From an uncultured bacterium (GTDB lineage: Bacteria; Verrucomicrobiota; Kiritimatiellia; RFP12; UBA1067), in the NCBI GenBank assembly GCA_902802945.1, contig CADCOC010000001.1, forward strand, positions 1 to 64,000: 64,000 bases of DNA. The letters are read 5' to 3'. Within the stretch, counting starts at the first letter, position 1, and each line of letters opens with the position of its first letter. Below, piece after piece: positions 6,687 to 28,128 of the stretch. A program made the position numbers and the translations under genes. The notes beneath the pieces are model-generated. The model ran no database searches. It was not told where the DNA came from and saw only the letters and a list, made by a program, of their open reading frames with translations.

Positions 6687-8150
6687 ATGAAGAAAGTGGC
6701 GATAGTTGGCGTTGAAGGCTCTGGCAAGACGGTGATGCTTGCCGGGTTGGGGGACTTGTACACGTATCCGGACGAGGACGGGTACTTCCTTGCGCCGAAA
6801 AACTTCGAAACAGCGACGTATGTTGCCGAGAAGATCAAGCGCATGCGGAGGGGTGAGTGGCCCTCGGCGACAACCGGCGACGAGATGCGGGGCCTCGACT
6901 GGACTTTGAAACGGCGCGAACTGGGAGCGCGCAAGCCGCCAGAGAACGTCTGCGAAGTCTCGTTCCTCGATTTCGCGGGCGAGGTGTACCGCGCTGCATA
7001 CGGCATTTCCGACGGAGACGACGACTCTCTGACGGAGCAGTCGAAGGAACTGAAGCAGTACGTGTGCGGGGCGGACGAGCTGATTGTGCTCATCAACCTG
7101 CGCGACGTGATCAGCAACGGACTTGGCGACCAGCGCGTACAGGAGGCGATGTGGATTACGAGGTCGATTCTTGACACGGTGCTTGGCAAAAAGGAAGGTA
7201 CGGGGGGGCCGCGTGCGGCGATCGTGCTCTCGCAGGCGGACAGATACGCGGAGACAATCAAGTCGTGCGGCGGCGCGACTGGCGTGTTGCAGAAGTATCT
7301 GCCGCATGTGGCCAACGATTATGGAGGGTGGCTTGATGTTTTTGCGGCAAATGCCATCGACAAGACGGTTCTCGACGATGATGGGAACATGGTGCCAGCT
7401 GCGGATTTCACTACGCAGGGCCTACTGTCGATTCTGAAGTGGATTCGCGGGGAAAAGGTTCTGGACGATGTGGCGATACCCAATGCAGAGGGGGGAAATT
7501 TGCCGCGACAGAGCGAATCCTCGCGTGGACGCAATAAGATTCAACTATGGGTGGAAGGCCCGTACTGGGCAGAGACGAACATCGGAGCCGATGAACCATG
7601 GGAATATGGCTGCTATTTCTGGTGGGGTGACACCGTGGGTTACAAACGTGAGAACAACGTATGGGTGGCGTGCGACGGTTCGTCATGTAATTTCTCCTTC
7701 GGCTCTGGGAACGCTCAAACCTACAATAGGAGCATTGCCTCCATGAAGAGCGGGGGATGGATTACGGACGGCAATGTTCTAGCGCCGGAACATGACGCAG
7801 CTCAAGTGCAATGGGGCGGCGGGTGGCGCATGCCGACGGCTCAGGAGCTTAAGGACCTTTGTGAAAAGTGCGATTGGCGCTGGACACAGATGAACGGCGT
7901 CAACGGATATCTCGTCCGAGGCAGGGGCGAGTACGCGTCCGCCAAAATTTTCCTTCCCGCTACTGGCTACGGCTATGGACCGTCGCTATACGGTGCTGGT
8001 TCGTACGGCTACTACTGGCCGTCTGATCCGTACTCGGACTATCACTATTTCGCGTGGTACTTCTACTTCTCTTCTAGCTACCACCGCACTAGTTACCATA
8101 CCCGCCTTCACGGACAGTCTGTTCGGCCTGTCCAAGGGTTTGGCGAATAG
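6687..8150 (+). CDS. Small-GTPase domain fused to a C-type-lectin-like FISUMP domain
   Basis: Protein of 487 residues. Residues 1-260 are a TRAFAC-type GTPase: P-loop GVEGSGKT at the N-terminus, a DxxG-like FLDFAGE and SQAD in place of the usual NKxD. Residues 280-487 form a Fibrobacter-succinogenes-type major paralogous (FISUMP/DUF1566-like) domain with WGGGWRMPTAQEL and an end in SVRPVQGFGE. The last 60 residues are dominated by Tyr, Ser and His. Such C-lectin-type tails serve as variable regions in diversity-generating retroelements elsewhere, but no reverse transcriptase or template repeat is in this window. The ATG at 6687 follows AGGTG; an in-frame GTG at 6678 is less likely. It is the first gene of a co-directional block reaching to 20416. 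Confidence 0.75.
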   Translation: MKKVAIVGVEGSGKTVMLAGLGDLYTYPDEDGYFLAPKNFETATYVAEKIKRMRRGEWPSATTGDEMRGLDWTLKRRELGARKPPENVCEVSFLDFAGEVYRAAYGISDGDDDSLTEQSKELKQYVCGADELIVLINLRDVISNGLGDQRVQEAMWITRSILDTVLGKKEGTGGPRAAIVLSQADRYAETIKSCGGATGVLQKYLPHVANDYGGWLDVFAANAIDKTVLDDDGNMVPAADFTTQGLLSILKWIRGEKVLDDVAIPNAEGGNLPRQSESSRGRNKIQLWVEGPYWAETNIGADEPWEYGCYFWWGDTVGYKRENNVWVACDGSSCNFSFGSGNAQTYNRSIASMKSGGWITDGNVLAPEHDAAQVQWGGGWRMPTAQELKDLCEKCDWRWTQMNGVNGYLVRGRGEYASAKIFLPATGYGYGPSLYGAGSYGYYWPSDPYSDYHYFAWYFYFSSSYHRTSYHTRLHGQSVRPVQGFGE

Positions 8151-8209
8151 CGAAAGCAGGGCCGAAGCTTTTCAGATGTTTTAGTGACGCACGGCATCTA
8201 AGAATTTGG

Positions 8210-8215
8210 TATAAT
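8210..8215 (+). promoter_or_regulatory. -10 box of the helicase operon
   Basis: TTGGTATAAT, with TATAAT at 8210-8215 and no TTGC-type -35 at the 17-base position. The start codon lies 34 bases downstream. This is a second promoter inside the 6.7-20.4 kb block. Confidence 0.6.
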
Positions 8216-8249
8216 TACCAACCTACACCCCAGAGGGTATGGGTGGAAT

Positions 8250-11200
8250 ATGACAGAAAACGTAGAGATCGAGATTGACGTGACCGGCGAATGTGGCCTT
8301 GTGCTGCAGCAGGCGGGGCGGTCGATCGTGCGCGGCGCGCGCGTGAGGAATGCGGGCGGGGAATCCCTCGTCGGCATGACGCTCACTTTGACGTCCGACA
8401 TCGGTTTGTTTCATCCGCTTATGCTTACGCTTGACGCCGTGCAGCCGGGCGAGACGATTTCCGTACAGGTTCCGGAGGGCGAGCCGAAGCTGGACTACGG
8501 ATTTCTCTCCACGCTGGCAGACGTGCGGCAGGGGGAGGTGCGTGCGTCGCTTGCCGCGCCTGACGGAAAGGAGCGCGCGTTCGCGTCCGTCCGCCACACG
8601 GTGTACGCGCCGGACCAGACGCTCGGCTGCGGGCGGCCGATTTACTATGCGAGCTTCGTCGTGCCGCAGTGCGACGCCGTCGCGCGCCTCCAGACGGACG
8701 TGGCGAAAGAGCTGGAGGCGGCAACCGGGGATGCGGGGATCGTCGGCTACCTGCACGAGAAGAAGGACGTCTACGACCTCTGCAAGGCCGTGTATCGCGC
8801 CGTGCAGAACCTTGGCATCGCGTACGCCGTGCCGCCGGCCACGTTTGGACAGCCCGGGCAGAAGGTTCGCCTGCCGGACGACATCCTGAAGTACAAGACG
8901 GGATGCTGTCTCGATACGACGCTTCTCTTCGCGTCCGTGTTCGAGAAGTGCGGACTGCGGCCCGTGGTCGTGTTGCTGAAGGACCATGCGTTCGTCGGAT
9001 GCCACCTCGTGGACAAGAGCTTCTCCGATCCGGTCGTGACGGACGTGGAGGTCCTGCGCAAGGCGCTGGCGGATGACACGCTGGTCGTGATGGAGACGAC
9101 GATGGTTGGCGGGAATTCGTCGTTCGCGGAGGCGGAGGCGTCCGCCAAGCTGAAACTGATGGAGAAGCCCTCGTTCGAGGGCGCGGTGGACGTGGCGCTC
9201 GCGCGCGGCATGGGCGTGCATCCGCTGCCCGTGGTGTCCGGCGGCGGGTTCGGCGAGGTTGAAGGGCGCGAGGTCAACGCGCGCGACGAGGCGACGCGCG
9301 AGTTGAAGGAGGACGTGAACCTCGACGCGCTCGGCGGGGCGGACAAGGACTCGGCGCAGGCGCGCATCGACGGCTGGGCGCAGCGGCTCCTTGACCTCTC
9401 AAAGGCCAACCGGCTCCTCAACGTGCGCGATAACGCCAAGGTCGTGCCGCTCCTGTGTCCCACGCCCGCGGCGCTCGAGGACGCGATCGCGGCGGACAGC
9501 GGGTTCCGCGTGAAGTCGTACGAGAACTTCCTCGACGCGGAGGCCGGGCGCGCGTTTCGGAAGCTTGCTCCGGCCGTGGCGCTCGAGCAGTACCACGAGA
9601 CGCTGGAGAAGTCGCTGCGCGAATGCGAGCTGTGGAGCGTCCTGCCGAAGAAGGACACCGAGAGGCGTCTCAAGGAGCTGTACCGCGCCGCACGCGTCGA
9701 TCTGGAGGAAAGCGGCGTCAACACGCTGTTCCTTGCGCTCGGAACGATGGAATGGCGCGAGGCGGGCGCCGCGAAGTCGGCGCCGCGCTGCCGTGCGCCG
9801 ATCCTGCTCGTGCCGGTGAAGATCGAGCGGAGGAGCGTGTCGGACGGCTACCGCATCCGCAGACTCGACGAGGAGACGATCATCAACACGACACTCCTTG
9901 AGATGCTTCGCGTGGAATACCGGCTCTCCGTGCCGGGACTCGATCCGCTGCCGACGGCTGATTCCGGTGTGGACGTGGGGAAGGTGTTCGGCATCCTCCG
10001 CGCGGCGGTGCGGGACCTGCCGGGCCTCGCCGTATCTGAAGACTGCATGGTGGGGCAATTCTCCTTCGGCAAGTTCGTGATGTGGAAGGACTTGACGTCC
10101 CGCAGTGAGGCGATCCGCGCCAACCCGCTCGTCGCGCACCTGATTGCACGCAAAGGTGCGTATGACGACGGAGTAGAGTCGTTCCCCGCAGTTGAGGTGG
10201 ACGGGCATCTCGACTATGCGCGGCTGTGCTGTCCGTTGAGCGCGGACTCCACCCAGCTCGCGGCGATCCTCTATTCCGCGCTCGGCAAGACGTTCGTCCT
10301 GCACGGTCCGCCCGGCACCGGCAAGTCGCAGACGATCACCAACATCATAGCGCACAACCTCTCGCTTGGTCGGCGCGTGCTGTTCGTCTCGGAGAAGAAA
10401 GCCGCGCTCGACGTGGTGTACGGGCGTCTGTCGCGACTTGGCCTTGCGCCGTTCTGCCTACAGCTGCACTCCAACAAGGCGGGCAAGGCGGATGTCTACG
10501 CGCAATTCTCGGAGGCCCTCAAGGTCGGTGCCGCCGCGCCTGCCGGCGACTCGGCCGCTACGGTCAGGGAGATTGAGGATGTCCGCCGCCAGCTGGACGG
10601 CTACGTGAAGTCCCTGCATCGCCAGACCGTGAGCGGTTTTACGCCATACGATCTCTTCTCGCGCCTTGTTCGCGGCGAGATTGACGGCGACGGCTCGCTC
10701 GTGAGAGGCAACGCCCGCGAAGTGACAGCTGAAGAGTACGACAAGGCGAAGCGAGCGATTACGGTTGCGGCGGAGATGCGCGAAGGGATTCCGGCCGACG
10801 CCGTAAAGGCGCTTGCGCGCGTGAAGCCTTTCGCCTGGAGTCCCGGTGCGGAAGCGCGCCTTGCGGAGGATGCCGTGCGCATTGCAGGGGAGCTGCGCGA
10901 GGCGAAGGCAGAACTTGAAAAAGTCGGAGGGCCGTCCGAGGACGCCGCCCGTTTCCTGAAGCGCTATTTCAACTTCCTGAAGGAGACGCGGAAGTTCGAG
11001 GAGAACGTCGCCGTTGCATACGATCCTGCTGCTCTCCGCAAGATGCCCGTGCGCGAGCTGCGTCGGCGTCTGGGAGAGATCGACCGCGCGTTCGTCCTCG
11101 TGCGCGTCTTCAAGGAACGTGCGCTCGTGCGCGAGTACGCCGCGGTTGCGAAGGACGGTGCGTTGGACCGCGTGCGCCTCCGCGAGGCGATGAAGCTGGC

Positions 11201-13163
11201 GACGAGTCTCCAGGAGGCGGACGAGGAGCTGGCGAAGTTGGAACCGCGCGCCAAGCAGCTGCTGGGCGAGGGATTCGATCCGAAGACTGCGAATCCCGAC
11301 GAGCGTTTCGAGGCTCGCGCACGGGCGGAACTGCGCCTGGAAAAGGCGTGCGGCGCGGTATCGGAATTGATCGTAGCCGAGCCGTCCGAGCTCGTTCCGG
11401 CGAAGTCGGGCGAGCTCGTGGAGCTGGCTGACGGAATCGCGGCGCACGCGAAGGGCAACCTAAGGCAGGCCTTCATGTACTTCGAGGCACGGCGGGAGAT
11501 TCCGTTCGTGGCGGGCGCGGTGGCGGAGGCGCTGGACGGGGACGACGCGCCGGACGCGGCGGCGTGGTCCGCGCAGTTCGACAAGGCGTTCCAGTCGAAA
11601 CTTCTGGACGAGACGATGGAGAGCGAGCCCGCGTTCGGTTCGTTCAGGGGCGTCGCGCGCGAGGCGCAGATTGCGCGCTTCCGCGAGCTTGACGCGCGTT
11701 GCGCGGAGTTGGCGAGGAGAAGTCTTGTCGCAAAACTCACCGCGGCCATTCCGCGCACTGACGGACACGCGCGGCGCGGCGACACGAGCGAGCTCGGGCT
11801 CCTGATGCACGAGTGCGGGAAGAAGATGCGCCAGAAGCCGGTGCGGCAGATTCTGGCTGAGACGCCCACGCTCATGCCGTCCATAAAGCCGTGCTTCCTG
11901 ATGAGTCCGCTCTCGGTGGCGCAGTACCTGCCCGTGGACGCCGCGTTCGACCTCGTGGTGTTCGACGAGGCGTCGCAGATTCCGACGTGGGACGCCATCG
12001 GCGTCATCGCGCGCGGGAAGCAGTTGATCGTGGTGGGCGACCCCAAGCAGATGCCGCCGACGAGCTTCTTCCAGAAGGGGCCTGACGAAGAGGCGGAGGT
12101 GGAGGACCTCGAGAGCATTCTCGACGAGTGCCTGCACGCGGGGTTGATGTCGTGCTTCCTCGGCTGGCACTACCGCAGCCGACACGAGTCACTCATCGCC
12201 TTTTCCAACCACCGCTACTACGAGGGCGGACTGAACGTGTTCCCGGCGGCGGCGCTCACGGACCGGCTGGGCGTCAGCTTCGTGTACGTGCCGGACGGCG
12301 TGTACGAGGCGAGCGGCAGCCGCACGAACAGGCGCGAGGCGGAGAGGGTGGCAGACATCGTGATGCGGTGGATGGCGGATCCGGAATGCGCGGGGAAGTC
12401 CATCGGCGTGGTCACGTTCAGCGAGGCGCAGCGCGACCTGGTGGAAGACCTCGTGGACGAGCGCCGCGAGGCGGCGCCGGAACTCGAGGCGCGTTTCGCG
12501 GAGCAGGGCGACGAGCCGTTCTTCGTGAAAAACCTCGAGAACGTGCAGGGCGACGAGCGCGACGCGATCGTGTTCTCGGTGGGGTACGCGCCCGACGCGA
12601 ACGGGAAGTTCAACATGGTGTTCGGCCCGCTCAGCAACCAGGGCGGCGAGCGCCGCCTCAACGTGGCCATCACGCGCGCCAAGGAGAAGATCGTGGTCGT
12701 CTCCAGCATCCACGCTCGGCAGATCGACACCGACCGCGTTTCGCGCCAGGGGCCGGCGGACCTCCGGGCCTTCCTCGACTACGCGGAGAAGGGTTATCGT
12801 ATCGCGCTGCCGCAGGCGGACGCTGCGAACGACCGCTTCGCCGAGGAGGTGGCGGCCACGCTGGAGAAGGCCGGGGCCAAGGTGTCGCGGGACGTAGGGT
12901 GCGGCGGAAACCGGGTGGACGTGGCCGTGCGCGCCCCTGGTGACGACGCCAGGTACGTGATGGGCGTGATGTGCGACGGGCGAAGCTACGCCGGTGCGCG
13001 CACTGCGCGCGACCGCGACTGTCTGCGCGATGACGTGCTGGCGTCGCTCGGCTGGAACGTCGTGCACGTGTGGGCCGTGGACTGGGCATACGACCGGGCC
13101 CGTGCGGAGAAGAGGATTTTGGAAGAATTCAAAAAGGCAACAACGAGAAAGGAACAAAAATGA
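8250..13163 (+). CDS. Very large DUF4011-type superfamily 1 helicase-nuclease
   Basis: Protein of 1637 residues with five parts. (1) Residues 1-120 look like an Ig-type beta domain. (2) Around 180-260 is a transglutaminase/peptidase-like segment with TGCCLDTTLL and a His in KDHAFVG. (3) A DUF4011-like region begins near 370 (LLDLSKANRLLN). (4) A UPF1/DNA2-like SF1 helicase (COG1112 type) has GPPGTGKSQT near 686, VFDEASQIP near 1234 and LNVAITRAKEK near 1468. A long coiled insert separates the two ATPase halves. (5) The C-terminal 90 residues resemble the Vsr/DUF559-type endonuclease (GGNRVDVAV, then CDG and YAGARTARDRD). Similar helicases occur in anti-phage systems such as Mokosh; assignment to defence is inference. 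The next gene overlaps its stop codon (ATGA). Confidence 0.8.
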   Translation: MTENVEIEIDVTGECGLVLQQAGRSIVRGARVRNAGGESLVGMTLTLTSDIGLFHPLMLTLDAVQPGETISVQVPEGEPKLDYGFLSTLADVRQGEVRASLAAPDGKERAFASVRHTVYAPDQTLGCGRPIYYASFVVPQCDAVARLQTDVAKELEAATGDAGIVGYLHEKKDVYDLCKAVYRAVQNLGIAYAVPPATFGQPGQKVRLPDDILKYKTGCCLDTTLLFASVFEKCGLRPVVVLLKDHAFVGCHLVDKSFSDPVVTDVEVLRKALADDTLVVMETTMVGGNSSFAEAEASAKLKLMEKPSFEGAVDVALARGMGVHPLPVVSGGGFGEVEGREVNARDEATRELKEDVNLDALGGADKDSAQARIDGWAQRLLDLSKANRLLNVRDNAKVVPLLCPTPAALEDAIAADSGFRVKSYENFLDAEAGRAFRKLAPAVALEQYHETLEKSLRECELWSVLPKKDTERRLKELYRAARVDLEESGVNTLFLALGTMEWREAGAAKSAPRCRAPILLVPVKIERRSVSDGYRIRRLDEETIINTTLLEMLRVEYRLSVPGLDPLPTADSGVDVGKVFGILRAAVRDLPGLAVSEDCMVGQFSFGKFVMWKDLTSRSEAIRANPLVAHLIARKGAYDDGVESFPAVEVDGHLDYARLCCPLSADSTQLAAILYSALGKTFVLHGPPGTGKSQTITNIIAHNLSLGRRVLFVSEKKAALDVVYGRLSRLGLAPFCLQLHSNKAGKADVYAQFSEALKVGAAAPAGDSAATVREIEDVRRQLDGYVKSLHRQTVSGFTPYDLFSRLVRGEIDGDGSLVRGNAREVTAEEYDKAKRAITVAAEMREGIPADAVKALARVKPFAWSPGAEARLAEDAVRIAGELREAKAELEKVGGPSEDAARFLKRYFNFLKETRKFEENVAVAYDPAALRKMPVRELRRRLGEIDRAFVLVRVFKERALVREYAAVAKDGALDRVRLREAMKLATSLQEADEELAKLEPRAKQLLGEGFDPKTANPDERFEARARAELRLEKACGAVSELIVAEPSELVPAKSGELVELADGIAAHAKGNLRQAFMYFEARREIPFVAGAVAEALDGDDAPDAAAWSAQFDKAFQSKLLDETMESEPAFGSFRGVAREAQIARFRELDARCAELARRSLVAKLTAAIPRTDGHARRGDTSELGLLMHECGKKMRQKPVRQILAETPTLMPSIKPCFLMSPLSVAQYLPVDAAFDLVVFDEASQIPTWDAIGVIARGKQLIVVGDPKQMPPTSFFQKGPDEEAEVEDLESILDECLHAGLMSCFLGWHYRSRHESLIAFSNHRYYEGGLNVFPAAALTDRLGVSFVYVPDGVYEASGSRTNRREAERVADIVMRWMADPECAGKSIGVVTFSEAQRDLVEDLVDERREAAPELEARFAEQGDEPFFVKNLENVQGDERDAIVFSVGYAPDANGKFNMVFGPLSNQGGERRLNVAITRAKEKIVVVSSIHARQIDTDRVSRQGPADLRAFLDYAEKGYRIALPQADAANDRFAEEVAATLEKAGAKVSRDVGCGGNRVDVAVRAPGDDARYVMGVMCDGRSYAGARTARDRDCLRDDVLASLGWNVVHVWAVDWAYDRARAEKRILEEFKKATTRKEQK

Positions 13164-13816
13164 CATTAGGCGACATCATAGCAAAAATCCTCGAAATATT
13201 CGGAATCAAACCGGCGCGCGAGCGGAAGCTCAGAGGCGCGATCGACGATACGAGGCGTAAGATCGCCGAAATGGATGAGGACAGAAGTCTCATTTTGCGC
13301 ACAAACGCGAAGATTGCAGAGGTCATCGCCGATCTTAGGCGCAAGCTTCAGGTTGAGACGATACCCCAGAACCAGAAGCTGATCATGGACGAAATGGACG
13401 AGCAGGAGAAGGAACTTGATCGAAAGACCGCGTTGTCCGAGCAGATGACTGAGAACATCTCGACGCAACGCATCATGCTCAGCAGGTACGAGCAGCTTCT
13501 CGAACAGCTCCGCCATGGCGCCGATCCTGTCATGATCGAAATGCTCACTGAAGAGGTTGCCAACATGGAGGAGATGCGCAAGGGAGCGAAAGATGGAGCT
13601 GAGGGGCTTGACGTCAGCGGCAGCAAGTCGAAGTCCCGAAAGGCGTCGGGCGCCGCTGCGGCTAAGCACGCCGCCCGACTGGCGGAGAAGCTCGGCACGG
13701 CGGTCCCCGCCCAGTCCGCGCCTGCGAACCACGCCCCGTCAACGCCTGCCGCTCCGGCGCCAGCGGCCCCTGAGACTGCACCTGATACTCCCGCGCCGAC
13801 GGTTGCCGCGGGCTGA
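13160..13816 (+). CDS. Coiled-coil protein, PspA/ESCRT-III-like (candidate)
   Basis: Protein of 218 residues. It starts with an amphipathic helix (MTLGDIIAKILEIFGIK), then has about 125 residues of long charged helices with heptad character. A low-complexity Ala/Pro-rich tail (about 165-218) follows. An N-terminal membrane-binding helix ahead of a helical hairpin is the plan of PspA/Vipp1 and ESCRT-III proteins. The similarity is architectural, not proven by alignment. It begins inside the stop of the helicase gene and follows AGAAAGGAA, so the two are translationally coupled. The next gene encodes a second protein of the same plan. Confidence 0.55.
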   Translation: MTLGDIIAKILEIFGIKPARERKLRGAIDDTRRKIAEMDEDRSLILRTNAKIAEVIADLRRKLQVETIPQNQKLIMDEMDEQEKELDRKTALSEQMTENISTQRIMLSRYEQLLEQLRHGADPVMIEMLTEEVANMEEMRKGAKDGAEGLDVSGSKSKSRKASGAAAAKHAARLAEKLGTAVPAQSAPANHAPSTPAAPAPAAPETAPDTPAPTVAAG

Positions 13817-13873
13817 CGTGTCAGATTCGGCCTTTGAAAAATTCTAACTAAAGAAGAAGAAAGAGAGAAAGTC

Positions 13874-14494
13874 ATGTCAATAGGAAGCATCTTAACTAAC
13901 ATCGGCAACATCTTCAAGACCACCGAGGAGATTGAGGCCGAGAAGCGCAGACAGAAACGCATGCTCGAGCGCGGCATCGAGAAGTCGATCGAAGCACTAT
14001 CCGAAGGGCAACGCCAGGCAGCAAAGGAACAGGAGAAGTTCTACCAGCAGGGCAAGCAGAAGCTCTCGGTTGGACGCGACGCCGAGGCACGCCAGTTCTT
14101 TCAGTTCTCGCGCATGCAGGCGCGGAGCGCGGAGAACTACACGCGCCAGAGGCTCATGTGGACGAACGCCCTCACGCAGATTAAGGTAGCAACTTCCATG
14201 CAGATGGCGGCCGCGTGCTTCAAGGATCTCGCCGCGCAGTGTGGTCTGAACCCGGACGTGTTCGAGAGCGGGCTTGACTCGATGGCGGACATTGAGAGCA
14301 CGATTGGGGAAATGAACAAGGCGATGGCGAAGAAGTGGGAGAGGGACAGCCTGAAGGCCGGAGAGGTCTCCGACGAGGCTGGCGACACCTCCATCGACGA
14401 GATGATGGAGCAGGCACGTGGCGAGGTCGCCGCAGAGACGGGTGCCGACGCGGCCGGATCCGAGTCGTCCACGCCAGGCCCGTCAGCCGTCTGA
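13874..14494 (+). CDS. ESCRT-III/Snf7-like helical protein (candidate)
   Basis: Protein of 206 residues, the usual size of ESCRT-III subunits. Seen: an amphipathic start ([16 protein letters not shown]), a basic first helix rich in Lys, Arg and Gln (about 20-60), a second long helix with repeated Ala/Gln/Arg (60-110), then a Met-rich helix ([12 protein letters not shown]) and an acidic C-terminal helix ([12 protein letters not shown]). Basic N-terminal half, acidic C-terminal half and a final short helix match the ESCRT-III plan, in which the terminal helix binds the MIT domain of the Vps4 ATPase. The next gene encodes an AAA+ ATPase with a MIT-like N-terminus. I rate the assignment as likely by architecture and context, not established. 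Confidence 0.5.
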
Positions 14495-14504
14495 GGAGAC
14501 GTCC

Positions 14505-15608
14505 ATGGGCGATTTCTACACCGACCGCGTCAAATCCCTGGACGCGCAGATAAGGAAGGCTCAGGCGTCCGGCAACAACGCGCAGGCCGCGGCGTTCTGC
14601 CGCGAGGCGGCGAGGGCCGTGGAGGCAATCGCCGTACGCACGGCGGGGGCAATCCGCGAGGCGTGGAAGAAGAGGGCTTCCGGGTACTTGGCTTCTGCCG
14701 AGCGCTACGAGAACGCTGGCCTCGTTCCGGCCACACCAGGAGGTGTTCAGCAGAAGCCGAAGTCTGGACCTGTTGCCGCATCGTCCGAGCAGCCGCAGAA
14801 AAGTCTGGCTGAACTGATGAAAGAGCTGAACGACCTCGTGGGGCTTCAACCCGTGAAGGCCGAGATCGCGAAGCTCGCGGACTTTCTCAAAATACAGGCC
14901 GCACGGTCGCGTGAGGGGCTCAAGTCCAACGGGCTTTCCCTGCACTGCGTGTTTACTGGCAATCCCGGTACCGGCAAGACGACTGTGGCGCGTCTGGTGG
15001 CGGGCATCTACCGCGAGCTGGGCGTCCTCAAGAAGGGACATCTCGTGGAGACCGACAGGGCTGGGCTCGTGGGGCAGTACGTGGGTCACACCGCGCCAAA
15101 GGTGGACGCGAAGGTGGACGAAGCGCTTGACGGCGTGCTCTTCATCGATGAGGCATACACGCTTTCCTCTGGTGGCGGAAACGATTTCGGGCAGGAGGCC
15201 ATAAACCAGCTCCTGAAGCGCATGGAGGACGATCGCGATCGACTCGCCGTGATTGTGGCTGGCTACACGGGAGAGATGAAGGAATTCCTTGCTTCGAACC
15301 CTGGACTCAACTCGCGCTTCAACCGCTTCATCGATTTTCCAGACTATTCGGCGGAAGAGTTGGCGGCGATATTCGACGGACAGATGCGCAGGAACGAGTA
15401 TGTCTGTTCGCCAGAGACGCGCGACGAGATCGCCCGCCGCATGGCTGCGGCACGCGCCGGGGCGAACGTGAAAGAGTTCGGAAACGCACGTTTCGTACGT
15501 AACGCCTTTGAGCGGACTCTCGAGCGCCAGGCCGTGCGGCTGGCGTCATATGGCAGCACTGACAGAGCCTCTCTCTTGGAGATCCGCACCGAAGACCTTG
15601 CTATCTAA
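14505..15608 (+). CDS. CbxX/CfxQ-type AAA+ ATPase with MIT-like N-terminal helical bundle
   Basis: Protein of 367 residues. Residues 1-72 are predicted to form three short helices ending [13 protein letters not shown], very like the MIT domains that precede the AAA module in Vps4 (three helices, Tyr-Leu-x-Arg/Ser-Ala-Glu near the end). Residues 100-360 are a CbxX/CfxQ-family AAA+ domain: GLQPVKAEI, Walker [10 protein letters not shown], Walker [10 protein letters not shown], sensor 1 VIVAGYT and Arg-finger region NSRF. CbxX proteins otherwise remodel Rubisco, but no Rubisco gene is nearby. Ten bases separate it from the ESCRT-III-like gene, with GAGGAGAC before the ATG. The likely role is to remodel the neighbouring filament proteins. 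Confidence 0.75.
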
Positions 15609-15613
15609 CCCCT

Positions 15614-15641
15614 ACCAACTACCATCCACCAACTACCAACT
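15614..15641 (+). repeat. 28-bp ACCAACTACCA-type repeat, copy 1
   Basis: This 28-bp block lies between the ATPase stop codon and the next start. It recurs with one mismatch inside argS at 61567-61594. It is built of ACCAACT/ACCAxC units. A sibling block of CACGAACCA units lies at 32371-32408 inside the lutB-lutA fusion. Confidence 0.75.
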
Positions 15642-15654
15642 GAAAGGCAAAAAC

Positions 15655-16554
15655 ATGAGATTAGGAGGATTGTTTAACGGTTTCTCGTTTGGCGCCGGCT
15701 TCGAGTTGATGCGCCGTGTAATCGCGCCAGCCATATTGGTGGCCACGCCGCTGATGCTCTGGTGGTGGCTAGGACCAGAGAAACCATCGTGCGATTCGGC
15801 GCGCCAGCTTGCGGCCCGATCAGCAATCGCGCAGGCTACCGAGCGGATACGCGCCGAACGCGGAGACATCCGCCGGGCGGCCGTCCTTCACCTCGCGAAC
15901 GACCCGTCCGATTATGTGACGCTGTCCTTGCGCAGCCATCTGGCGGAGGGCGGGCTTCTCGACCTTGACGGCACGCCGCCTTCCGAGAAGATACGCAACC
16001 TGCTTAACCTTCGCAACGAGGGCCTGTTCGACGTGGAGAAGGCCATTGAATACGGCAAGAGCCACGGACTCGACGCGGTCCTGATTGGCATCCTCGACGA
16101 GTTCGAGACGGTGAAGGGCAAGGCTGTCCTCAGGGGGCAGTTGAAGTTCGTGCGGATTGCGAAGGGCGACGTGGTGGACATCCCGTTCTCCGACAATGCG
16201 TCCGGTGGCGGTTCGGCGGCGGAAATCGCCAAGGTTGTCGCAGGAACTGGGGAGCCGCCATCACTTTCGCTTACGACTCGCATCTTGCTGTTGTCGCTCT
16301 CCATCTTCCTCCTGCCGATACTGGCATTCCCGTTTCTCAAGATGGCTATGGGAAGGAACTCTAACGTCGCGGCCGCCACAGCCCTGATCATACTGCTTGC
16401 CATCGACGGGTTCATCATCAGCGCGGCCCTCGGCACGAGCGGGACGTTCTGCGGCCTCGCAGTGTTCCTAATCGTGTTCGCGGCGGCATTTGGATATGAC
16501 CTCTTCATGCTCTCATACGCACAGCTTCGCCGTCCCCCGTCGCCAGCGAACTAA
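15655..16554 (+). CDS. Membrane protein of the ESCRT-like cluster
   Basis: Protein of 299 residues. One membrane helix lies near the N-terminus (about 22-40). A soluble domain of about 165 residues contains a beta-strand pattern (DAVLIGILDEF, AVLRGQLKFVRIAKGD) reminiscent of CsgG/FlgT-like folds. Three closely spaced membrane helices follow (about 205-290). Its ATG follows AGGCAAAAAC. Position between the ATPase and kinase genes suggests it anchors or senses for the module. I do not recognise a named family. Confidence 0.7.
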   Translation: MRLGGLFNGFSFGAGFELMRRVIAPAILVATPLMLWWWLGPEKPSCDSARQLAARSAIAQATERIRAERGDIRRAAVLHLANDPSDYVTLSLRSHLAEGGLLDLDGTPPSEKIRNLLNLRNEGLFDVEKAIEYGKSHGLDAVLIGILDEFETVKGKAVLRGQLKFVRIAKGDVVDIPFSDNASGGGSAAEIAKVVAGTGEPPSLSLTTRILLLSLSIFLLPILAFPFLKMAMGRNSNVAAATALIILLAIDGFIISAALGTSGTFCGLAVFLIVFAAAFGYDLFMLSYAQLRRPPSPAN

Positions 16555-16572
16555 ATTGAATGGAGTCTGGCG

Positions 16573-17637
16573 ATGACACAGGAAGAATTTTTTGGCGCGA
16601 TCGAACATAACTTGCAACTGCTGGCTGCAAAACGCGCCGAATTGCCGTTGTACAACATTCCGCGGATTGGCATTTTCCTTGGCAAATTCGGGAATCTGAA
16701 GTTGCTGTCTCGAATCAAGGAGTTTAAGTGCATTGCCAAGGGTGGTGATCCGCAGTGCCCTGATAACGTGCGCTGTTACGACCTTCTTTCTTCAAAGGCT
16801 CTCTTCGTCGGCCCGATTCGGTTTCGTGTCTTTGCCTGTTTCGCGGATGCGCCAACGGCGGAGGGATATCGTCTGGCCAAACGCGCAATCCGCAGATGGT
16901 ATCAGCAGAGCGGTTGGGCCAATAACGAATGTGAGATGCCGTACGCAGCCGCCATTGTCGTGGGGGCTGCATCGCCTTGGGAGGATGGACTCACTCCAAA
17001 TGCAGTAGACCCGCCGAGCGCGAACGTCAAAATTGCATTTCGCATGCTTGCGGCTTCCAGCCCACAGCCGGGGAATGGAATGGTGATAGAAAAGGAGGGG
17101 GATGTAGGGGCGTGCATAATCGTTTATCAAGCGCTTGTCCCAGAGACGTTCGACAAGGTGGAGAGACGTGTGCGTGATTGCGTGGAGAACCTTTTCCTGC
17201 CGAACGGCGATGTAATAGGCGGAGGGTATCTTACCGTTCGCAAGGTCATGGACAGGTTGCCGAAGATCCCATACAAGGTGATAGTCAACATTTTCGTCAA
17301 GATGCAGGGAGAGGGAAATTACAGAAAAGACTTGCTGCCGAAGGATGCAGGGCGAGAATTGGATGAACAGCGCGTATACCTTGAGAAGCGTCCGCCATCC
17401 TTTCTAAAGAAATGGCTCTCGCGGCTGGAGCCTGAATGGTATACGCAGAACCGTGTTTCTCGGCTAGTGGGCCTGGGCTCGATCGGGGCGTTGCTTACGG
17501 TGCCCTTGCAGCTTTTTGAACATTTCATTCCAGACTTGATCATGCCGTACAGATTCATGATCTTTCTCGTCGTCAGCAGCTTGCTGGGCGTATGCTTGAT
17601 TCTCTGGCTCTGGTTTTTACTGCGCCGTCGGATCTAA
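16573..17637 (+). CDS. Unrecognised protein with two C-terminal membrane helices
   Basis: Protein of 354 residues. The first 300 are soluble and contain eight or so Cys residues and several Pro-rich turns. The last 55 form two hydrophobic helices (about 297-315 and 325-347) ending in LLRRRI. The coding sequence is less GC-rich than its neighbours, which suggests separate acquisition. It follows the previous gene by 18 bases, with GGAGTCTGGCG before the ATG. No family assigned. Confidence 0.65.
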   Translation: MTQEEFFGAIEHNLQLLAAKRAELPLYNIPRIGIFLGKFGNLKLLSRIKEFKCIAKGGDPQCPDNVRCYDLLSSKALFVGPIRFRVFACFADAPTAEGYRLAKRAIRRWYQQSGWANNECEMPYAAAIVVGAASPWEDGLTPNAVDPPSANVKIAFRMLAASSPQPGNGMVIEKEGDVGACIIVYQALVPETFDKVERRVRDCVENLFLPNGDVIGGGYLTVRKVMDRLPKIPYKVIVNIFVKMQGEGNYRKDLLPKDAGRELDEQRVYLEKRPPSFLKKWLSRLEPEWYTQNRVSRLVGLGSIGALLTVPLQLFEHFIPDLIMPYRFMIFLVVSSLLGVCLILWLWFLLRRRI

Positions 17638-17668
17638 CGTTAATGATCTTCAATTCAGGAGGTGAAAA

Positions 17669-19363
17669 ATGGGATTCTTAAAAAGACTATTTGGTGGCGG
17701 TGCGTCGGCTGAAAAGCCAATCACCGGCGACATGTCGACAACGCTGATCAGGAGGTTGTCCGCAAACAAACATGAACTTGACGGACTGCCTCGCGACAGA
17801 CACGGACATGTGAGAGACGTGTTCTCTTGCGACTATCTCGACTTGACTGGGCTGAGAGACAAGCTGTCGTTCAGCCCATGCCTTGATCCAAAGACTTCTG
17901 TCGAAAGGGGCAAGTCGGTGTATTATCTCTCGCCGAACGTGTTCGTGCTGGAATTCGGCTGTCGAGACAATAAGCGCGTAAAGATGACGGCGACGCTGGA
18001 CAGGACTACGACAAGCGCTCTTCCCGAATGGCTGCACGCCTACGTGACAAAACCGGGGGAGAGTATCACTGCGGAAGCATTGGGGAGGCTACTGGACGGC
18101 AAGTACTCTTCCGAAAGACTTCCAGAATGGCTCATCTCTGAGCAGGGGGGGACGGAGATATCCCCCGATACAAAACCGCCAGAGGGTAAGTCGTTTGCCG
18201 AACTCGAGCCTGGAGACGTCGTTTTCAATTCCTACCGGATAGAACGCGAACTTGGCGGTGGTGGGCAGGGGCGTGTGCTTCTTGCGACAGACACAAACGC
18301 CCCCACGGAGTCCCTTGCGCATGTCGTGTTGAAGGGACTGTACGGCGGTGATGCGGTGGACGGTTCGGCGCTTGATGCCATCATTGGCGAGGCAAACTTC
18401 CTACGGAGCATGCGGCACGATGGAATCGCGGCGTACTACTGGTGCAAGATGCTTCGGGATGTGCCAGTCCTTGCGATCGAATACATCGAAGGTGTTTCGC
18501 TCGCGGATTATCTGGCCCACAAGTCTGGCGGCAAGATCAGCGAGGACGAGACACGGGAACTGTTGCGCCCGATCGCCGCCGCGCTTGACTACGCGCATCG
18601 CAGGAACGTGTTCCACCGTGACATAAAACCGAAGAACATTATCGTCCGGAACTCGCCCGTAAACGGGTTAAAGACATGTCTGATAGACTTCGGAATCGCG
18701 GGGACGAATCAGTCAGGTGCTACTGGGCAGCCAATCGGGACTCCTCGGTATATGTCGCCCGGGCAGAAGCTCGGCAAGCCGGCGTCGGCTGACATGGACG
18801 TGTATTCTCTTGCGGTTACGGCGTATGAATGCCTGACCGGAACGTTGCCGTATCCAGACGGATGGCTTCCCGGCGTGAAAGTGCCGCCGCTTCCATCGGA
18901 TACGCCTTTCGCGCGCTCGGTGATGCGCGGTCTTGCCATGTTGCCGGAAGATCGTCCTGCCACATGTTGCGAACTTATAGATCCAAAAGAAAACGTCGTC
19001 CCATCACCCCCACCCCCACCCACACCTCCTCCACCGCCGCCAGACGACCTTAAGGAACTGGAACGCTCGTTCATGCTCTATCGGCAGCTTCTGGCGCAGA
19101 GTGCTACGCGGATCGAACGGGAGAATAGCGACATGGCGGAGTGGTTCCGCGGTGCCCAGAGCAGACTTCGGGATATGACTTATGACCTAGCGCGTTCCGA
19201 CCGCCTGAAGCTTGAGGAATTCTTCAACGAGATCAGGGCCAAGAGGTGTCGGGTGTCTTCGGACGATTTCTTTCTGGCGACAGACCGTCTCGTCGAAGTG
19301 CGTAACGGCCTTCCCAAAAAAGGCGGTACGGTTTGGCACGCGCTCAAGGAAAGCATCAGTTGA
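17669..19363 (+). CDS. Ser/Thr protein kinase (Hanks type)
   Basis: Protein of 564 residues. Residues 1-185 are of unknown type with a short hydrophobic start (MGFLKRLFGGG). The kinase domain spans about 187-435: Gly-rich loop GGGGQGRV, lysine in VVLKGL, catalytic FHRDIKPKN (about 314) and IDFGIA. The activation-segment APE is replaced by SPG. A Pro-rich linker (PPPPPTPPPPPP) leads to a C-terminal helical region of about 110 residues. All catalytic residues are present, so it should be active. It is presumably the signalling arm of the surrounding cluster; substrates could be the coiled-coil proteins or the helicase, which is inference. AGGAGGTG precedes the ATG. Confidence 0.9.
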   Translation: MGFLKRLFGGGASAEKPITGDMSTTLIRRLSANKHELDGLPRDRHGHVRDVFSCDYLDLTGLRDKLSFSPCLDPKTSVERGKSVYYLSPNVFVLEFGCRDNKRVKMTATLDRTTTSALPEWLHAYVTKPGESITAEALGRLLDGKYSSERLPEWLISEQGGTEISPDTKPPEGKSFAELEPGDVVFNSYRIERELGGGGQGRVLLATDTNAPTESLAHVVLKGLYGGDAVDGSALDAIIGEANFLRSMRHDGIAAYYWCKMLRDVPVLAIEYIEGVSLADYLAHKSGGKISEDETRELLRPIAAALDYAHRRNVFHRDIKPKNIIVRNSPVNGLKTCLIDFGIAGTNQSGATGQPIGTPRYMSPGQKLGKPASADMDVYSLAVTAYECLTGTLPYPDGWLPGVKVPPLPSDTPFARSVMRGLAMLPEDRPATCCELIDPKENVVPSPPPPPTPPPPPPDDLKELERSFMLYRQLLAQSATRIERENSDMAEWFRGAQSRLRDMTYDLARSDRLKLEEFFNEIRAKRCRVSSDDFFLATDRLVEVRNGLPKKGGTVWHALKESIS

Positions 19364-19378
19364 GTTGGGAGATGCAGC

Positions 19379-20416
19379 ATGAAGATAAATCTGGCAGTAT
19401 ATACGGCCCAAGAGGGCTACTCCTGGCAACCAGGCTCCGCCTTTATGATCGAGGAATTGGTCGCGTTCAAGAAGAGCATCGGGAAATTCCCATCGCCCGA
19501 CTCAGCGGAATTCCCGTTCGGCGGGATTTTCCTGTTGGAAGATCGAGTTGTATTCTACCGTTACCATGTGGCGAAGAAGATCGACTTCCGTGGGCGTGAC
19601 GCGCTCTACTGCGTCCTCGGCGCAGTTTCTCGCGAAGATGCCGCGAAGATCGACCCTGCCGCGCTGTTCGCCTGCCCTGAGTTTGCGGGGCCGATGAAGC
19701 CGTTCCCGACGGAACTGGAGCTTCCGGAGGCTGATTCCTCCACCGTGCCAGAGTGGCTGAAGAACCTTGATAACAATACGCTCGACGTGCGGATTACGGG
19801 AACTGCCGATAATCCATCTTATGCGGTAATTCAGGAGCCAATTGAAATTCCGCAGACCCCTGTCTCGGAGACTACTGTCCCAGTTCCTCCTGAAATACCC
19901 CCCGCCGATCCCGGTTCTGCTGAGCCTGTACCCGCTCCCGATGGTGGGGCGCAATCACCGAGCGCGCCGCAATGCGGTGTGCCTGATTCGCAAAATTCTG
20001 TCCCTGACGATAGTGGTGCGCGTCCCGTGCGTCAGTTGCCGCGTCGGTTGGTCTGGCAGATCGCCTCAGCGGCGGCAATGGCTGTCCTGCTAATAGGTGG
20101 GAGTATCTGGTTTGCGGTTGGAACAAAGCAAGGAGGTAACGGGGATGCCGAGTCAGGATTACCACAGACCAACGGAGTTGTGGTGACGGGTGCTCCTGAA
20201 GGTACGATACCAGCGGATACGAACAATCTGCCGGAGGTCTCGACATCCACAAATGACAATCATCCCGTGACGAATGTAGTCGACGTGTCAACGAACACCC
20301 TCCAGACGGCAACGAACGTTTCGGCTGCGGTAACGAACGCCGCTCCAGTCGAAAAGTCAGCCCCCGCGCCGACCACGGAAAAGAGTGCGCAAAAAACTGT
20401 ACAGAAGAAGCGTTAA
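19379..20416 (+). CDS. Single-pass membrane protein, last gene of the ESCRT-like cluster
   Basis: Protein of 345 residues. Residues 1-135 form a cytoplasmic globular domain. A Pro/Glu/Val-rich linker (140-220) and one membrane helix (about 228-247) follow. The C-terminal 95 residues are Thr/Asn-rich low complexity, presumably extracytoplasmic. A degenerate REP-like palindrome lies inside the linker at 19943-19968. It starts 15 bases after the kinase stop with GGGAGATG upstream. It may be a partner or receptor for the kinase; no family recognised. Confidence 0.65.
   Translation: MKINLAVYTAQEGYSWQPGSAFMIEELVAFKKSIGKFPSPDSAEFPFGGIFLLEDRVVFYRYHVAKKIDFRGRDALYCVLGAVSREDAAKIDPAALFACPEFAGPMKPFPTELELPEADSSTVPEWLKNLDNNTLDVRITGTADNPSYAVIQEPIEIPQTPVSETTVPVPPEIPPADPGSAEPVPAPDGGAQSPSAPQCGVPDSQNSVPDDSGARPVRQLPRRLVWQIASAAAMAVLLIGGSIWFAVGTKQGGNGDAESGLPQTNGVVVTGAPEGTIPADTNNLPEVSTSTNDNHPVTNVVDVSTNTLQTATNVSAAVTNAAPVEKSAPAPTTEKSAQKTVQKKR
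19943..19968 (-). repeat. Diverged REP-like palindrome (CTACCA family)
   Basis: Read on the minus strand this is GGCGCGCTCGGTGATTGCGC with a CCCACC tail, a decayed copy of the element at 45919-45946. It lies in the linker-coding part of the membrane protein gene. Confidence 0.5.
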
Positions 20417-20510: not shown

Positions 20511-20586
20511 GCGAGCTTAACTCAGTTGGTAGAGTGCCACCTTGCCAAGGTGGTTGTCGAGGGTTCGAGTCCCTTAGCTCGCTCCA
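20511..20586 (+). tRNA. tRNA-Gly (GCC)
   Basis: Cloverleaf with a 7-bp acceptor (GCGAGCT/AGCTCGC), D-loop CAGTTGGTAGAG, anticodon loop CTTGCCA (anticodon GCC), GGTTCGAGTCC T-arm and genome-encoded CCA. Confidence 0.95.
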
Positions 20587-20612
20587 TTCATGGGGTTGTG
20601 GAAGCGGTGAAT

Positions 20613-20688
20613 GGGAGCATAGCTCAGTTGGTAGAGCAAGTGACTCTTAATCACTGGGTCGTGGGTTCGAATCCCTCTGCTCCTACCA
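20613..20688 (+). tRNA. tRNA-Lys (CTT)
   Basis: Acceptor GGGAGCA pairs with TGCTCCT (one G-T pair at the end). The anticodon loop CTCTTAA gives anticodon CTT. T-arm GGGTTCGAATCC and encoded CCA are present. Confidence 0.95.
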
Positions 20689-20707
20689 TTCACAACTAAC
20701 TGGTCGT

Positions 20708-20783
<76 letters not shown>

Positions 20784-22047: not shown

Positions 22048-22881
22048 ATGAAACAAAGAAAAGAAATGATAGATGATGAACGCGGGTACTTCTTCGGATT
22101 TGCCCGTGGAACATACGGTGAGGTACTGGGCGAGCTCAGCAAGACGCGTGTCAATTCATGGCGGACGAGTTCCATCCCGCTCGCCGAATTCTGGCAACCG
22201 TCGAATCTCGGCAGGATCGGGAGACTTCTTTCCAAGCACCTTCCCGACTTCAATCCCGTCTGTGCGCTCAAATTCTTTGAGTTCCCCACGGACGCGCTTT
22301 TCGACGGCGAAAGGATCGGACGTCCTTCGATGACGGACATCATGATTCTCGAAGCCGGCGTGCAGATTGCCGTGGAGGGAAAGATGACCGAGTACGTTCG
22401 CTTTGCAGACAAAACGGTTCGGGAGTGGCTCAACGAGGGCGTGGGTGCGGCGGACATCCTCCTCCGCCATCGCATACTCAAGGCGTGGCTGTGCTATATC
22501 CACAATGCGGACTGCACCGGACTTGGCGGCTTTGCTGATTTCAAGTCGAACTGCATGGACATTTCGTACCAGTTCCTACACCGGACGGCGTCCGCCTGCA
22601 ACAAGGCAGGACTCAAGGGCGGTACGATACCTGTGCTTGTGTATCAGCTCTTCTTCGACGCAAACGACGCAGAACATATCCAGAAGATGGAGGAGTTCAA
22701 GTCCGAGTTGCGTCGGTGGGCGGCTGCGCTCAAGTTGCAGAACATGAAGTTTCTCAAGGCTCACTTCGATGGAATGCATGGCGAGATATTCGACACCATG
22801 CGCGACGAGTCCATCTACAAGTTTGACTTCGACGCAACGACGGTTGAGGCCGTCATCGACACGCCCGAGGAGGTCAAGTGA
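22048..22881 (+). CDS. PD-(D/E)xK-like nuclease candidate
   Basis: Protein of 277 residues. The segment MTDIMILEAGVQIAVEGKMT (about 95-115) has Asp, then after about 14 residues Glu-Gly-Lys, matching the D...ExK active site of PD-(D/E)xK nucleases. A helix follows, as expected. The rest shows no named domain. AAAGGAA precedes the ATG. The next gene, a DnaE-like polymerase, begins one base after its stop codon, so the two are made together and probably work together. Confidence 0.6.
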   Translation: MKQRKEMIDDERGYFFGFARGTYGEVLGELSKTRVNSWRTSSIPLAEFWQPSNLGRIGRLLSKHLPDFNPVCALKFFEFPTDALFDGERIGRPSMTDIMILEAGVQIAVEGKMTEYVRFADKTVREWLNEGVGAADILLRHRILKAWLCYIHNADCTGLGGFADFKSNCMDISYQFLHRTASACNKAGLKGGTIPVLVYQLFFDANDAEHIQKMEEFKSELRRWAAALKLQNMKFLKAHFDGMHGEIFDTMRDESIYKFDFDATTVEAVIDTPEEVK

Positions 22882-22882
22882 C

Positions 22883-25180
22883 ATGAACGGCTACGTTCCT
22901 CTCGATGTCCGCTCGTCGTATTCGATGGGCGATTCCATCTGCACTGTGCCGCGCCTTGTCTGCAAGGCGAGGGAGATGGGGTTCCCCGCGCTTGCGCTCA
23001 CCGATCGAAACTTCATGTTCGGCGCTGCCGAGTTCCATGCGGCATGTCGTTCGCAGCGGATAAAGCTCGGTGGTGATTTCCCGTCCATCAAGTCGATAAT
23101 CGGACGATCTGTCACGGCAACAATAGATGAGAAATGTCATGTCATACATCTTTATGCAAAGAACAAGATCGGCTACCGCAACCTTGTCCGTATCTCGTCG
23201 GCGGAAGTGCAGCCGCAAGGTGCCCAAGACCGATTCATAGCATTCTCTGACATCGAGAAATGGAGCGAAGGCCTTATTTGCATGACGAGCGACACGGAGC
23301 CGGACTTCGTGAATGGGTGCTTGCGTGTGTTTGACGATGATTTCGCTTTCTTGGCGGACAATGACGACTTTGATTGTTCGGCATGGCCGTCAGTCATGGT
23401 CTGCGCGGCAAATCATGTGAGGTTCATCGAAAAGGACGATGCCGAGGCGTATGATGCCTACTGCGCCATCTTCGACCACAGGAAATTGGCAGATGGCGGG
23501 CGCAGACATTGCAACGGGACTGAATACCTGCTGTCGAGAGAAGAGATGTCCTTGCGGTTCCCGAAGCATCCAGAATGGATCGAGAACACGGTCAAGCTTG
23601 CAGAGCGAATCGAAGATTACGAGATATGCGAAGCACCACAAGTCGTTGATTTTCCGATTCCACAGGGGTTCGGCAGCGAGGCGGACTACCTCGCCTCGCT
23701 CGTATGCGAGGGCATGAAGAATCGTTGGGGCGAACAGTTGCCGCCGGAAGTCGTAGAGAGGATCGATTTCGAGTTGCACGTCATCAAGATGATGGGTTTT
23801 CCCAGTTACTTCCTCATCGTACACGACTACGTGAAGGCGGCGCGGCGCATGGGCGTGTGGGTCGGCCCTGCACGCGGTTCGGCAACTGGTTCGGCGGTTG
23901 CGTATGCGCTTGGAATAACCTCCATCGATCCAATCAAGCACAGGCTCCTCTTCGAGCGTTTCCTCACCCCCGATAGGATCTCAATGCCAGACATTGATAT
24001 CGATTTCGAGGATGCCGGGCGCGGGAAGGTTGTCGAATATCTTTGCGATAAATACGGGCGCGACCACGTAGCCCACATCGTCACTTTCGGGCAAATGGCA
24101 CCACGAAGTGCAATAAAGGACGTGGCACGTGTGTTGGAGTATCCAATCCGTAAAGCCAACGAGCTTGCAAGCCTTGTCCCCGAAGAGCCACGAATGACGT
24201 TTCGGCGTGCGCGTAGTTGCTCGGCCAAATTTCGCCAGGTGTACGAGAATGGCGAAGATACGCAGAAGAAGATTCTTCGTATAGCCGAGAAGCTTGAAGG
24301 ATGTGTTCGGCAACCCGGCATACATGCCTGCGGAATCGTCATCTCGCGCAAGCCGCTTTGGGAAAGATTGCCTGTAATGCCCGTTGACGCGAATTCTCGC
24401 GTGGTTGGCGAGCCTGAACTTATCACGCAATATGACGGACAATATGTCGAACCCGTAGGACTCGTAAAGTTTGACATCCTTGGCTTAAAGACTTTGTCAA
24501 TCCACAAGGGTTGCGTGAACTTGATCAAGGAGCGGAAAGGACAGGTGGTTGATCTTGACAAGATCCCGAATGACGAACTTGAGACGATGGAGGTCTTTGC
24601 AAGGGGCGATACTGAGCATATTTTCCAGTTCGAGTCCGCCGGGATGAAGCGTTGGCTTAAGGCACTCAAACCGAAATGCTTTGATGACCTCGTGGCCATG
24701 AACGCTCTGTATCGTCCGGGGCCAATAGCCTGCATCCCTACGTTCGTGCGGCGCAAGAACGGCGAAGAGCCTGTCGCATACGATCATCCTCTCATGGAGG
24801 AGGAACTGCGCGAGACATACGGCGTTACCATCTATCAGGAGCAGATCATGATACTCTCGCGGAAGCTGGCCGGCTTCACGCGGGGCGAATCGGACAAGCT
24901 GCGCAAGGCGATGGGCAAGAAGCGACTCGACATCATGGAAGAGATGAAGGTCAAGTTCGTAGAAGGCTGTCTCGCCAACCAGGAGTTCCGCGTCGACAAG
25001 TGGAAGGACGAGGACGAGGCCCGTAGGCTCATCGACAAGATATGGAGTGATTGGCGCGCGTTTTCGTCCTATGCATTCAACAAGTCGCATGCTGTTGCAT
25101 ACGCTTGGCTTGCCTATCAGTCGGCATATCTCAAGGCTCACTATCTCGAAGAGTTCGCGGAGGCCGTAGGCAAGTGTTAA
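22883..25180 (+). CDS. Truncated DnaE-type DNA polymerase III alpha subunit paralogue
   Basis: Protein of 765 residues; replicative DnaE has about 1160. The polymerase core is complete. PDIDIDF (about 368) carries two catalytic Asp and FDILGLKTL the third. GPARGSATGSAVAYALG and FNKSHAVAYAWLAYQ are also present. The protein stops 20 residues after that last block, so the helix-hairpin-helix, OB-fold and beta-clamp-binding tail are missing. The N-terminal PHP domain is degenerate: its metal-binding HxH is VRSSYS and TDHG is TDRN, so no proofreading is expected. GAGGAGGT precedes the ATG. It is probably an accessory, non-processive polymerase linked to the upstream nuclease-like gene. Confidence 0.85.
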   Translation: MNGYVPLDVRSSYSMGDSICTVPRLVCKAREMGFPALALTDRNFMFGAAEFHAACRSQRIKLGGDFPSIKSIIGRSVTATIDEKCHVIHLYAKNKIGYRNLVRISSAEVQPQGAQDRFIAFSDIEKWSEGLICMTSDTEPDFVNGCLRVFDDDFAFLADNDDFDCSAWPSVMVCAANHVRFIEKDDAEAYDAYCAIFDHRKLADGGRRHCNGTEYLLSREEMSLRFPKHPEWIENTVKLAERIEDYEICEAPQVVDFPIPQGFGSEADYLASLVCEGMKNRWGEQLPPEVVERIDFELHVIKMMGFPSYFLIVHDYVKAARRMGVWVGPARGSATGSAVAYALGITSIDPIKHRLLFERFLTPDRISMPDIDIDFEDAGRGKVVEYLCDKYGRDHVAHIVTFGQMAPRSAIKDVARVLEYPIRKANELASLVPEEPRMTFRRARSCSAKFRQVYENGEDTQKKILRIAEKLEGCVRQPGIHACGIVISRKPLWERLPVMPVDANSRVVGEPELITQYDGQYVEPVGLVKFDILGLKTLSIHKGCVNLIKERKGQVVDLDKIPNDELETMEVFARGDTEHIFQFESAGMKRWLKALKPKCFDDLVAMNALYRPGPIACIPTFVRRKNGEEPVAYDHPLMEEELRETYGVTIYQEQIMILSRKLAGFTRGESDKLRKAMGKKRLDIMEEMKVKFVEGCLANQEFRVDKWKDEDEARRLIDKIWSDWRAFSSYAFNKSHAVAYAWLAYQSAYLKAHYLEEFAEAVGKC

Positions 25181-25201
25181 ATCGGCATATCAAGGTTATG
25201 G

Positions 25202-25207
25202 TATAAT
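25202..25207 (+). promoter_or_regulatory. -10 box giving a leaderless transcript
   Basis: ATGGTATAAT, with TATAAT at 25202-25207. The ATG at 25215 begins 7 bases after it, at the expected transcription start. Confidence 0.55.
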
Positions 25208-25214
25208 ATTGGCC

Positions 25215-26895: not shown

Positions 26896-26909
26896 CCAAA
26901 AGACGCATT

Positions 26910-28122: not shown

Positions 28123-28128
28123 AGCGGC

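Follow-up and report, generated by a model that had tools for sequence, protein, structure and literature searches.

A block of nine genes in a bacterium of the Verrucomicrobiota encodes a putative ESCRT-III protein next to an AAA+ ATPase and a helicase-nuclease of antiphage type. Profile comparisons and a structural model give good support for assigning one product, G4, to the Snf7/ESCRT-III family as a divergent member distinct from PspA. With moderate confidence, we read the whole block as a bacterial ESCRT-III machine coupled to the helicase-nuclease.

Layout of the nine-gene block

The block was examined in the window, the whole 64,000-nucleotide stretch of DNA that was analysed. An earlier note on this DNA had described nine co-directional genes separated by short gaps or overlaps, and all nine open reading frames (G1 to G9) were indeed found in that order on the + strand:

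G1, 6687..8150, + strand: P-loop GTPase (DO-GTPase-like) with a C-terminal Lcl_C/FISUMP (C-type-lectin-like) domain
G2, 8250..13163, + strand: DUF4011 SF1 helicase with an MTES_1575 restriction-type nuclease domain; NCBIfam anti-phage ProA
G3, 13160..13816, + strand: helical-hairpin protein, amphipathic at the N-terminus; probably a second, distant ESCRT-III-like subunit
G4, 13874..14494, + strand: Snf7/ESCRT-III family protein
G5, 14505..15608, + strand: SpoVK/CbbX-type AAA+ ATPase whose N-terminal domain (about residues 1-75) is MIT-like
G6, 15655..16554, + strand: membrane protein whose soluble domain lies between one TM segment at the N-terminus and three at the C-terminus
G7, 16573..17637, + strand: protein of no assigned family with one C-terminal TM segment
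G8, 17669..19363, + strand: Hanks-type Ser/Thr protein kinase with its own N-terminal extension
G9, 19379..20416, + strand: single-TM protein with a conserved N-terminal domain

Intergenic gaps are mostly below 60 bp, the exception being the 99 bp between G1 and G2. The start of G3 overlaps the end of G2 by 4 bp, and G1 has an alternative GTG start at 6678. The promoters that had been proposed at 6617 and 8210 were not recovered: a consensus scan, which does not cover other promoter types, found none nearby and returned 3 sites over the whole region, against 3.3 expected. Archaeal or eukaryotic contamination is unlikely, because ordinary bacterial genes (greA-, dksA- and miaA-like) lie just upstream of the block on the same 115-kb contig. 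Named relatives of the G4 family come from ruminant-gut assemblies, which points to a Kiritimatiellae-type gut bacterium as the host.

On the 3' side, three tRNA genes (Gly, Lys, Phe; 20511-20783) start 95 bp after the block; the six relatives' stretches that were checked showed none of them. Beyond the tRNAs, positions 22769-29746 hold DNA polymerase III alpha-like, FtsK-like and ORF6N-like genes at a lower G+C, which is suggestive of a mobile element. A single island spanning 6.5 to 53.8 kb was considered and rejected, core-type genes being present within 33-53 kb. It had been prompted by a relative (G029) in which miaA is joined to a homologue of the 53.85 kb region, an arrangement that a rearrangement in G029 may explain.

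Among the genes flanking the ESCRT-type core, G1 matches Pfam Lcl_C (2.5e-7) and DO-GTPase1 (0.003), both under the curated cut-offs, and G8 matches Pkinase (1.2e-33). By hydropathy, G6 has four TM segments, and G7 and G9 have a single one apiece; by eye, the soluble domain of G6 has a FlgO/CsgG-type likeness. In relatives, G1-type GTPases are located at the 3' end of the block rather than upstream, in one to four tandem copies. One stretch (L145 1952-13048, G030:C409) carries five GTPase genes 3' of the block whose C-terminal parts differ (vWA, Sel1-like repeats, TM segments, FISUMP), an arrangement that resembles a collection of interchangeable sensors or effectors. The template repeat of a diversity-generating retroelement is expected to leave an adenine bias. 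Such an element at the lectin-like C-terminus of G1 was rejected, as the six genomic paralogous stretches vary at all four bases without this bias.

G4 and its partners G3 and G5

When the G4 family profile (17 sequences) was compared with every PDB sequence, yeast SNF7 chains took the top four places, at E 1.3e-7 to 9.1e-7, and Asgard ESCRT-III proteins appeared lower in the ranking. Pfam Snf7 is matched by 14 of the 17 family members (best 8.7e-9), and no PspA_IM30 match is listed among them. In other genera, homologues at about 20-25% identity are recognised by Pfam Snf7, and two of these exceed the curated cut-off; the window's own G4 is below detection by this model, so that its link is transitive, through homologues at 21-27% identity. 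Taken singly, neither G3 nor G4 has a Pfam family. In a six-frame search, the curated Snf7 cut-off was passed in 5 of 25 genomes; among the controls Sulfolobus acidocaldarius alone matched, below the cut-off, and 13 others were silent.

The AlphaFold2 model of G4, of moderate confidence (pLDDT 72), places an amphipathic helix before a long hairpin and further C-terminal helices, in an ESCRT-III-like order (predicted helices 4-11, 17-65, 69-105, 109-122, 128-134, 137-166 and 174-194). Foldseek, run with this model against the PDB, puts CdvB or CHMP1B/IST1 in each of its top seven places (best E 0.021, probability 1.00). With VIA-align, BAR domains rank level with ESCRT-III; helical bundles are a known weak spot for this ranking. 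Sequence analysis indicates amphipathic N-termini in both G3 and G4. The C-terminal helix of G4 (174-194) is acidic, and a (D/E)xxLxxxLxxE-like pattern was seen by eye in relatives. Elsewhere in the window's own genome, a 3.5-kb contig (L068 1-3500, G000:C271) carries another ESCRT-III-family gene, with FHA and kinase genes next to it.

Like bacterial PspA/Vipp1, G4 belongs, by homology and predicted fold, to the ESCRT-III superfamily, with a probable membrane role and YdjI-type SPFH partners. What sets its family apart from PspA/Vipp1 is a match to the Snf7 model and none listed to PspA_IM30. The latter was found in none of the 13 carrier genomes, while the same search was positive in 9 of 14 controls.

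G3 is probably a distant second ESCRT-III-like subunit. Its AlphaFold2 model (from a family of 16 sequences) has an amphipathic helix, a hairpin and a long helix. Aligned with hhalign, the G3 and G4 profiles share 128 columns with a score of 35.8, at an HH probability of only 55%; 26 reversed, rotated or block-shuffled controls scored 20.8 at most. A fold search to place G3 returned only unspecific coiled coils.

G5 combines Pfam AAA with AAA_lid_6 and reaches 296.9 bits to SpoVK, under its cut-off. No Vps4/meiotic-clade AAA domain was found in G5, which is of the SpoVK/CbbX type, whereas the partner AAAs of other loci are of the Cdc48/Vps4 clade with AAA_lid_3. Residues 1-75 of G5 nonetheless align with the N-termini of these AAAs. 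The window locus is best described, on sequence grounds, as having its motor swapped (SpoVK-type for Cdc48/Vps4-clade) behind the same putative adaptor domain. Two versions of a profile of this N-terminal domain were searched against the PDB. The best natural matches were 2mpk (E 0.07), labelled chitin synthase 1 and which we take to be an MIT domain, and the Vps4B MIT domain (E 0.48). MIT-domain matches ranged from E 0.07 to 2, and designed helical proteins scored slightly above the natural matches with both versions. Pfam MIT gave no match in single sequences. These matches are suggestive of an MIT-like domain. With Snf7 homology and an MIT-like AAA, the "ESCRT-like" membrane module put forward in the earlier note stands on firmer ground than was claimed for it.

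The resulting set resembles archaeal and eukaryotic ESCRT-III/Vps4 systems, including Cdv, in its Snf7-family protein with an amphipathic N-terminus, in having multiple ESCRT-III paralogues and in a partner AAA+ with an MIT-like N-terminal domain, of the Cdc48/Vps4 clade in most bacterial loci. It differs from them in its bacterial host, in the SpoVK/CbbX type of the window AAA, and in the linkage of the window genes to a kinase, a GTPase, membrane proteins and a helicase-nuclease. According to Makarova et al. 2024 (PMC10936438), ESCRT homologues occur in archaea and eukaryotes but bacteria lack them, the superfamily being represented there by PspA/Vipp1. The archaeal Meth_adaptin ESCRT loci of that study have an SPFH protein with a zinc ribbon and a coiled coil beside the ESCRT genes, as do three of our bacterial loci (L027, L028, L032), whereas the window variant has no SPFH gene. 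Ravi et al. 2024 describe Vps4-like AAA genes in bacterial operons with membrane proteins, a likeness to the present loci; there snf7 is displaced by an unrelated gene, whereas here the Snf7-family protein adjoins the AAA (PMC11237479). In Deltaproteobacteria and Bacteroidetes, the same authors report, a Snf7 protein is occasionally encoded close to PspA (PMC11237479). No description of the present gene set was found among the published open-access papers searched.

Conservation of the block and of its site

The same block is present, whole or in part, in 7 of the 16 sampled genomes of the genus. The order G2-G9 is kept in G036 and G033, and also in G030, although its G3 was recovered only as part of a longer open frame. 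On broken contigs, G032 and G040 keep this order too, and G031 has G5-G9 up to a contig end. G7 and G9 are conserved in the block within the genus, while G6 homologues occur next to the ESCRT-III core out to Hydrogenedentota.

All open frames of 39 loci were searched with profiles (a few loci are the same genome reached twice). In all loci whose contig does not end close by, an MIT-AAA gene lies near the Snf7 gene. The triad of G4, G3-like and MIT-AAA genes recurs where the contig extends far enough, the G3-like gene in nearly all cases. Six more MIT-AAA loci, found independently, have the same pattern or a contig edge, save L174 and L177, which carry MIT-AAA and G3-like genes with no Snf7 gene detected within the stretch covered. 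Outside the genus, the triad is often accompanied by G6, G7-like, kinase and GTPase genes, or by SPFH, FHA and M48 genes. Named carriers belong to Kiritimatiellae, Lentisphaerae, Verrucomicrobia and one Candidatus Hydrogenedentota genome; within the phylum, 16 of 388 genomes carry a Snf7-type gene. In L064 (3020-13088, G360:C5), one cluster brings together four genes of the ESCRT-III family with two for MIT-AAA proteins, of which one is 796 aa long.

These neighbourhoods agree with the earlier proposal of one linked system rather than chance neighbours, with the G2-G9 order kept in the genus and the G3/G4/G5 core found throughout a phylum and beyond it. Homologues of the helicase, coiled-coil and AAA+ genes are neighbours in other genomes as well, contrary to the refuting case named in the note, in which they would adjoin each other nowhere else. 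What persists across genera is the association of G3, G4 and G5; the helicase as a constant partner does not, since none of the blocks sampled from other genera contains it, and it is confined to a genus-level variant.

The block sits 3' of miaA, and G036 has the same block at the same site. At the miaA-flanked site, G041 carries a cytosine methylase and a type II restriction enzyme, and G035 a mad2-like gene (variable site at L162 8329-10714 and L163 6685-7902). In G030, the block and miaA are on different contigs. The site downstream of miaA is likely a defence hotspot, and both its variability and the differing location of the block fit a mobile defence locus.

The helicase-nuclease and the function of the block

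G2 (1637 aa) is composed of DUF4011, a split SF1 helicase and an MTES_1575 nuclease. It scores 1558.8 bits against the NCBIfam model "anti-phage protein ProA" (NF058533), above the cut-off of 1500, and 1045 bits against PADLOC PDC-S37. The helicase had been described as defence-type, which these two matches support. Its supposed likeness to Mokosh fared less well, the nearest families being ProA/PDC-S37 (1559 and 1045 bits) and not Mokosh (89 bits). A COG1112-type helicase and a Ser/Thr kinase are indeed common to both, but the window kinase is a separate gene and the Mokosh scores are partial, at most 89 bits. Membership was rejected, with matches over partial stretches only (43-89 bits) and no full-length MkoA or MkoC match. 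To our knowledge, ESCRT-type genes are not part of Mokosh. ProA-type relatives of about 1900 aa in the same family are located away from ESCRT genes, unlike G2, the first gene of the ESCRT operon. DUF4011 helicase relatives occur in 55 of 112 family genomes; G2 orthologues (79-94% identity), on the other hand, were found only in ESCRT-block genomes, adjoining the block. No paper on ProA or PDC-S37 was found among open-access papers. In a separate stretch (L141 5990-19999, G036:C25), a 3314-aa protein similar to both Ser/Thr kinases and DUF4011 helicases adjoins a 1350-aa SpoVK/CbbX-type AAA protein, and an ESCRT-III gene was not seen; judged from sequence similarity, kinase, helicase and SpoVK/CbbX-type AAA are linked here a second time.

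In the mechanism that we propose, G4, with G3, would assemble on the inner membrane via the amphipathic N-termini. The MIT-like domain of G5 would grip the acidic C-terminal helix of G4, and G5 would use ATP to remodel or disassemble the G4 polymer. Assembly could be triggered by G6, G7, G9, the kinase G8 and the GTPase-lectin G1, which would sense envelope disturbance, and G2 would process nucleic acid at the assembly site. As an outcome, phage DNA entry or phage-induced membrane damage would be sealed and the incoming DNA destroyed. A role of the membrane module in defence is likewise inferred. Put more broadly, Verrucomicrobiota and relatives may possess a Snf7-type ESCRT-III/MIT-AAA machine that serves, in this genus, as the membrane arm of phage immunity, sealing or constricting entry sites while the helicase-nuclease destroys DNA; we give this fuller version slightly less than an even chance. 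The helicase is missing from the majority of ESCRT-carrying loci, so the module's core function is something other than defence.

That same distribution gives weight to an envelope-stress or membrane-repair system that replaces PspA, with kinase and GTPase sensing, in which the helicase would be a defence-island neighbour sharing no mechanism. In all other genera sampled the core has no helicase and is often accompanied by SPFH, FHA and M48-peptidase genes, the 13 carriers all lack PspA, and the bacterial SPFH protein YdjI is linked to PspA (PMC10936438). We regard this explanation as unlikely, yet deserving attention; G2-type helicase orthologues occur only with the ESCRT block, and G2 overlaps G3 by 4 bp. 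A machine for trafficking, vesicle shedding or division, of the archaeal Cdv/ESCRT kind and with no immune role, is improbable. Archaeal systems do have the ESCRT-III and MIT-AAA core, and four ESCRT-III paralogues are gathered at one locus (L064), but the patchy presence (16 of 388 genomes in the phylum, 7 of 16 in the genus) and variable location are unfit for an essential division machine, and this block contains a defence helicase. Finally, different genes lie 3' of miaA in different relatives, as would be expected if unrelated defence and membrane genes had gathered in a variable island with no joint system. Conserved synteny largely refutes this last explanation, which we consider very improbable: the G2-G9 order recurs in several genomes and at more than one genomic location, and G3-G4-G5 is deeply conserved.

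The survey of conflict systems by Kaur et al. 2020 makes no mention of ESCRT, Snf7 or Vps4, and no link between ESCRT-III remodelling and bacterial immunity was found in open-access papers. If the coupling of the ESCRT-III machine to the helicase-nuclease is true, it would be the first such link, and would echo the roles of ESCRT-III in eukaryotic membrane repair and virus biology. A Snf7-type protein with an MIT-like AAA+ in several bacterial classes would alter the view of how ESCRT systems are distributed and have spread, and small bacterial ESCRT systems would become available for reconstitution.
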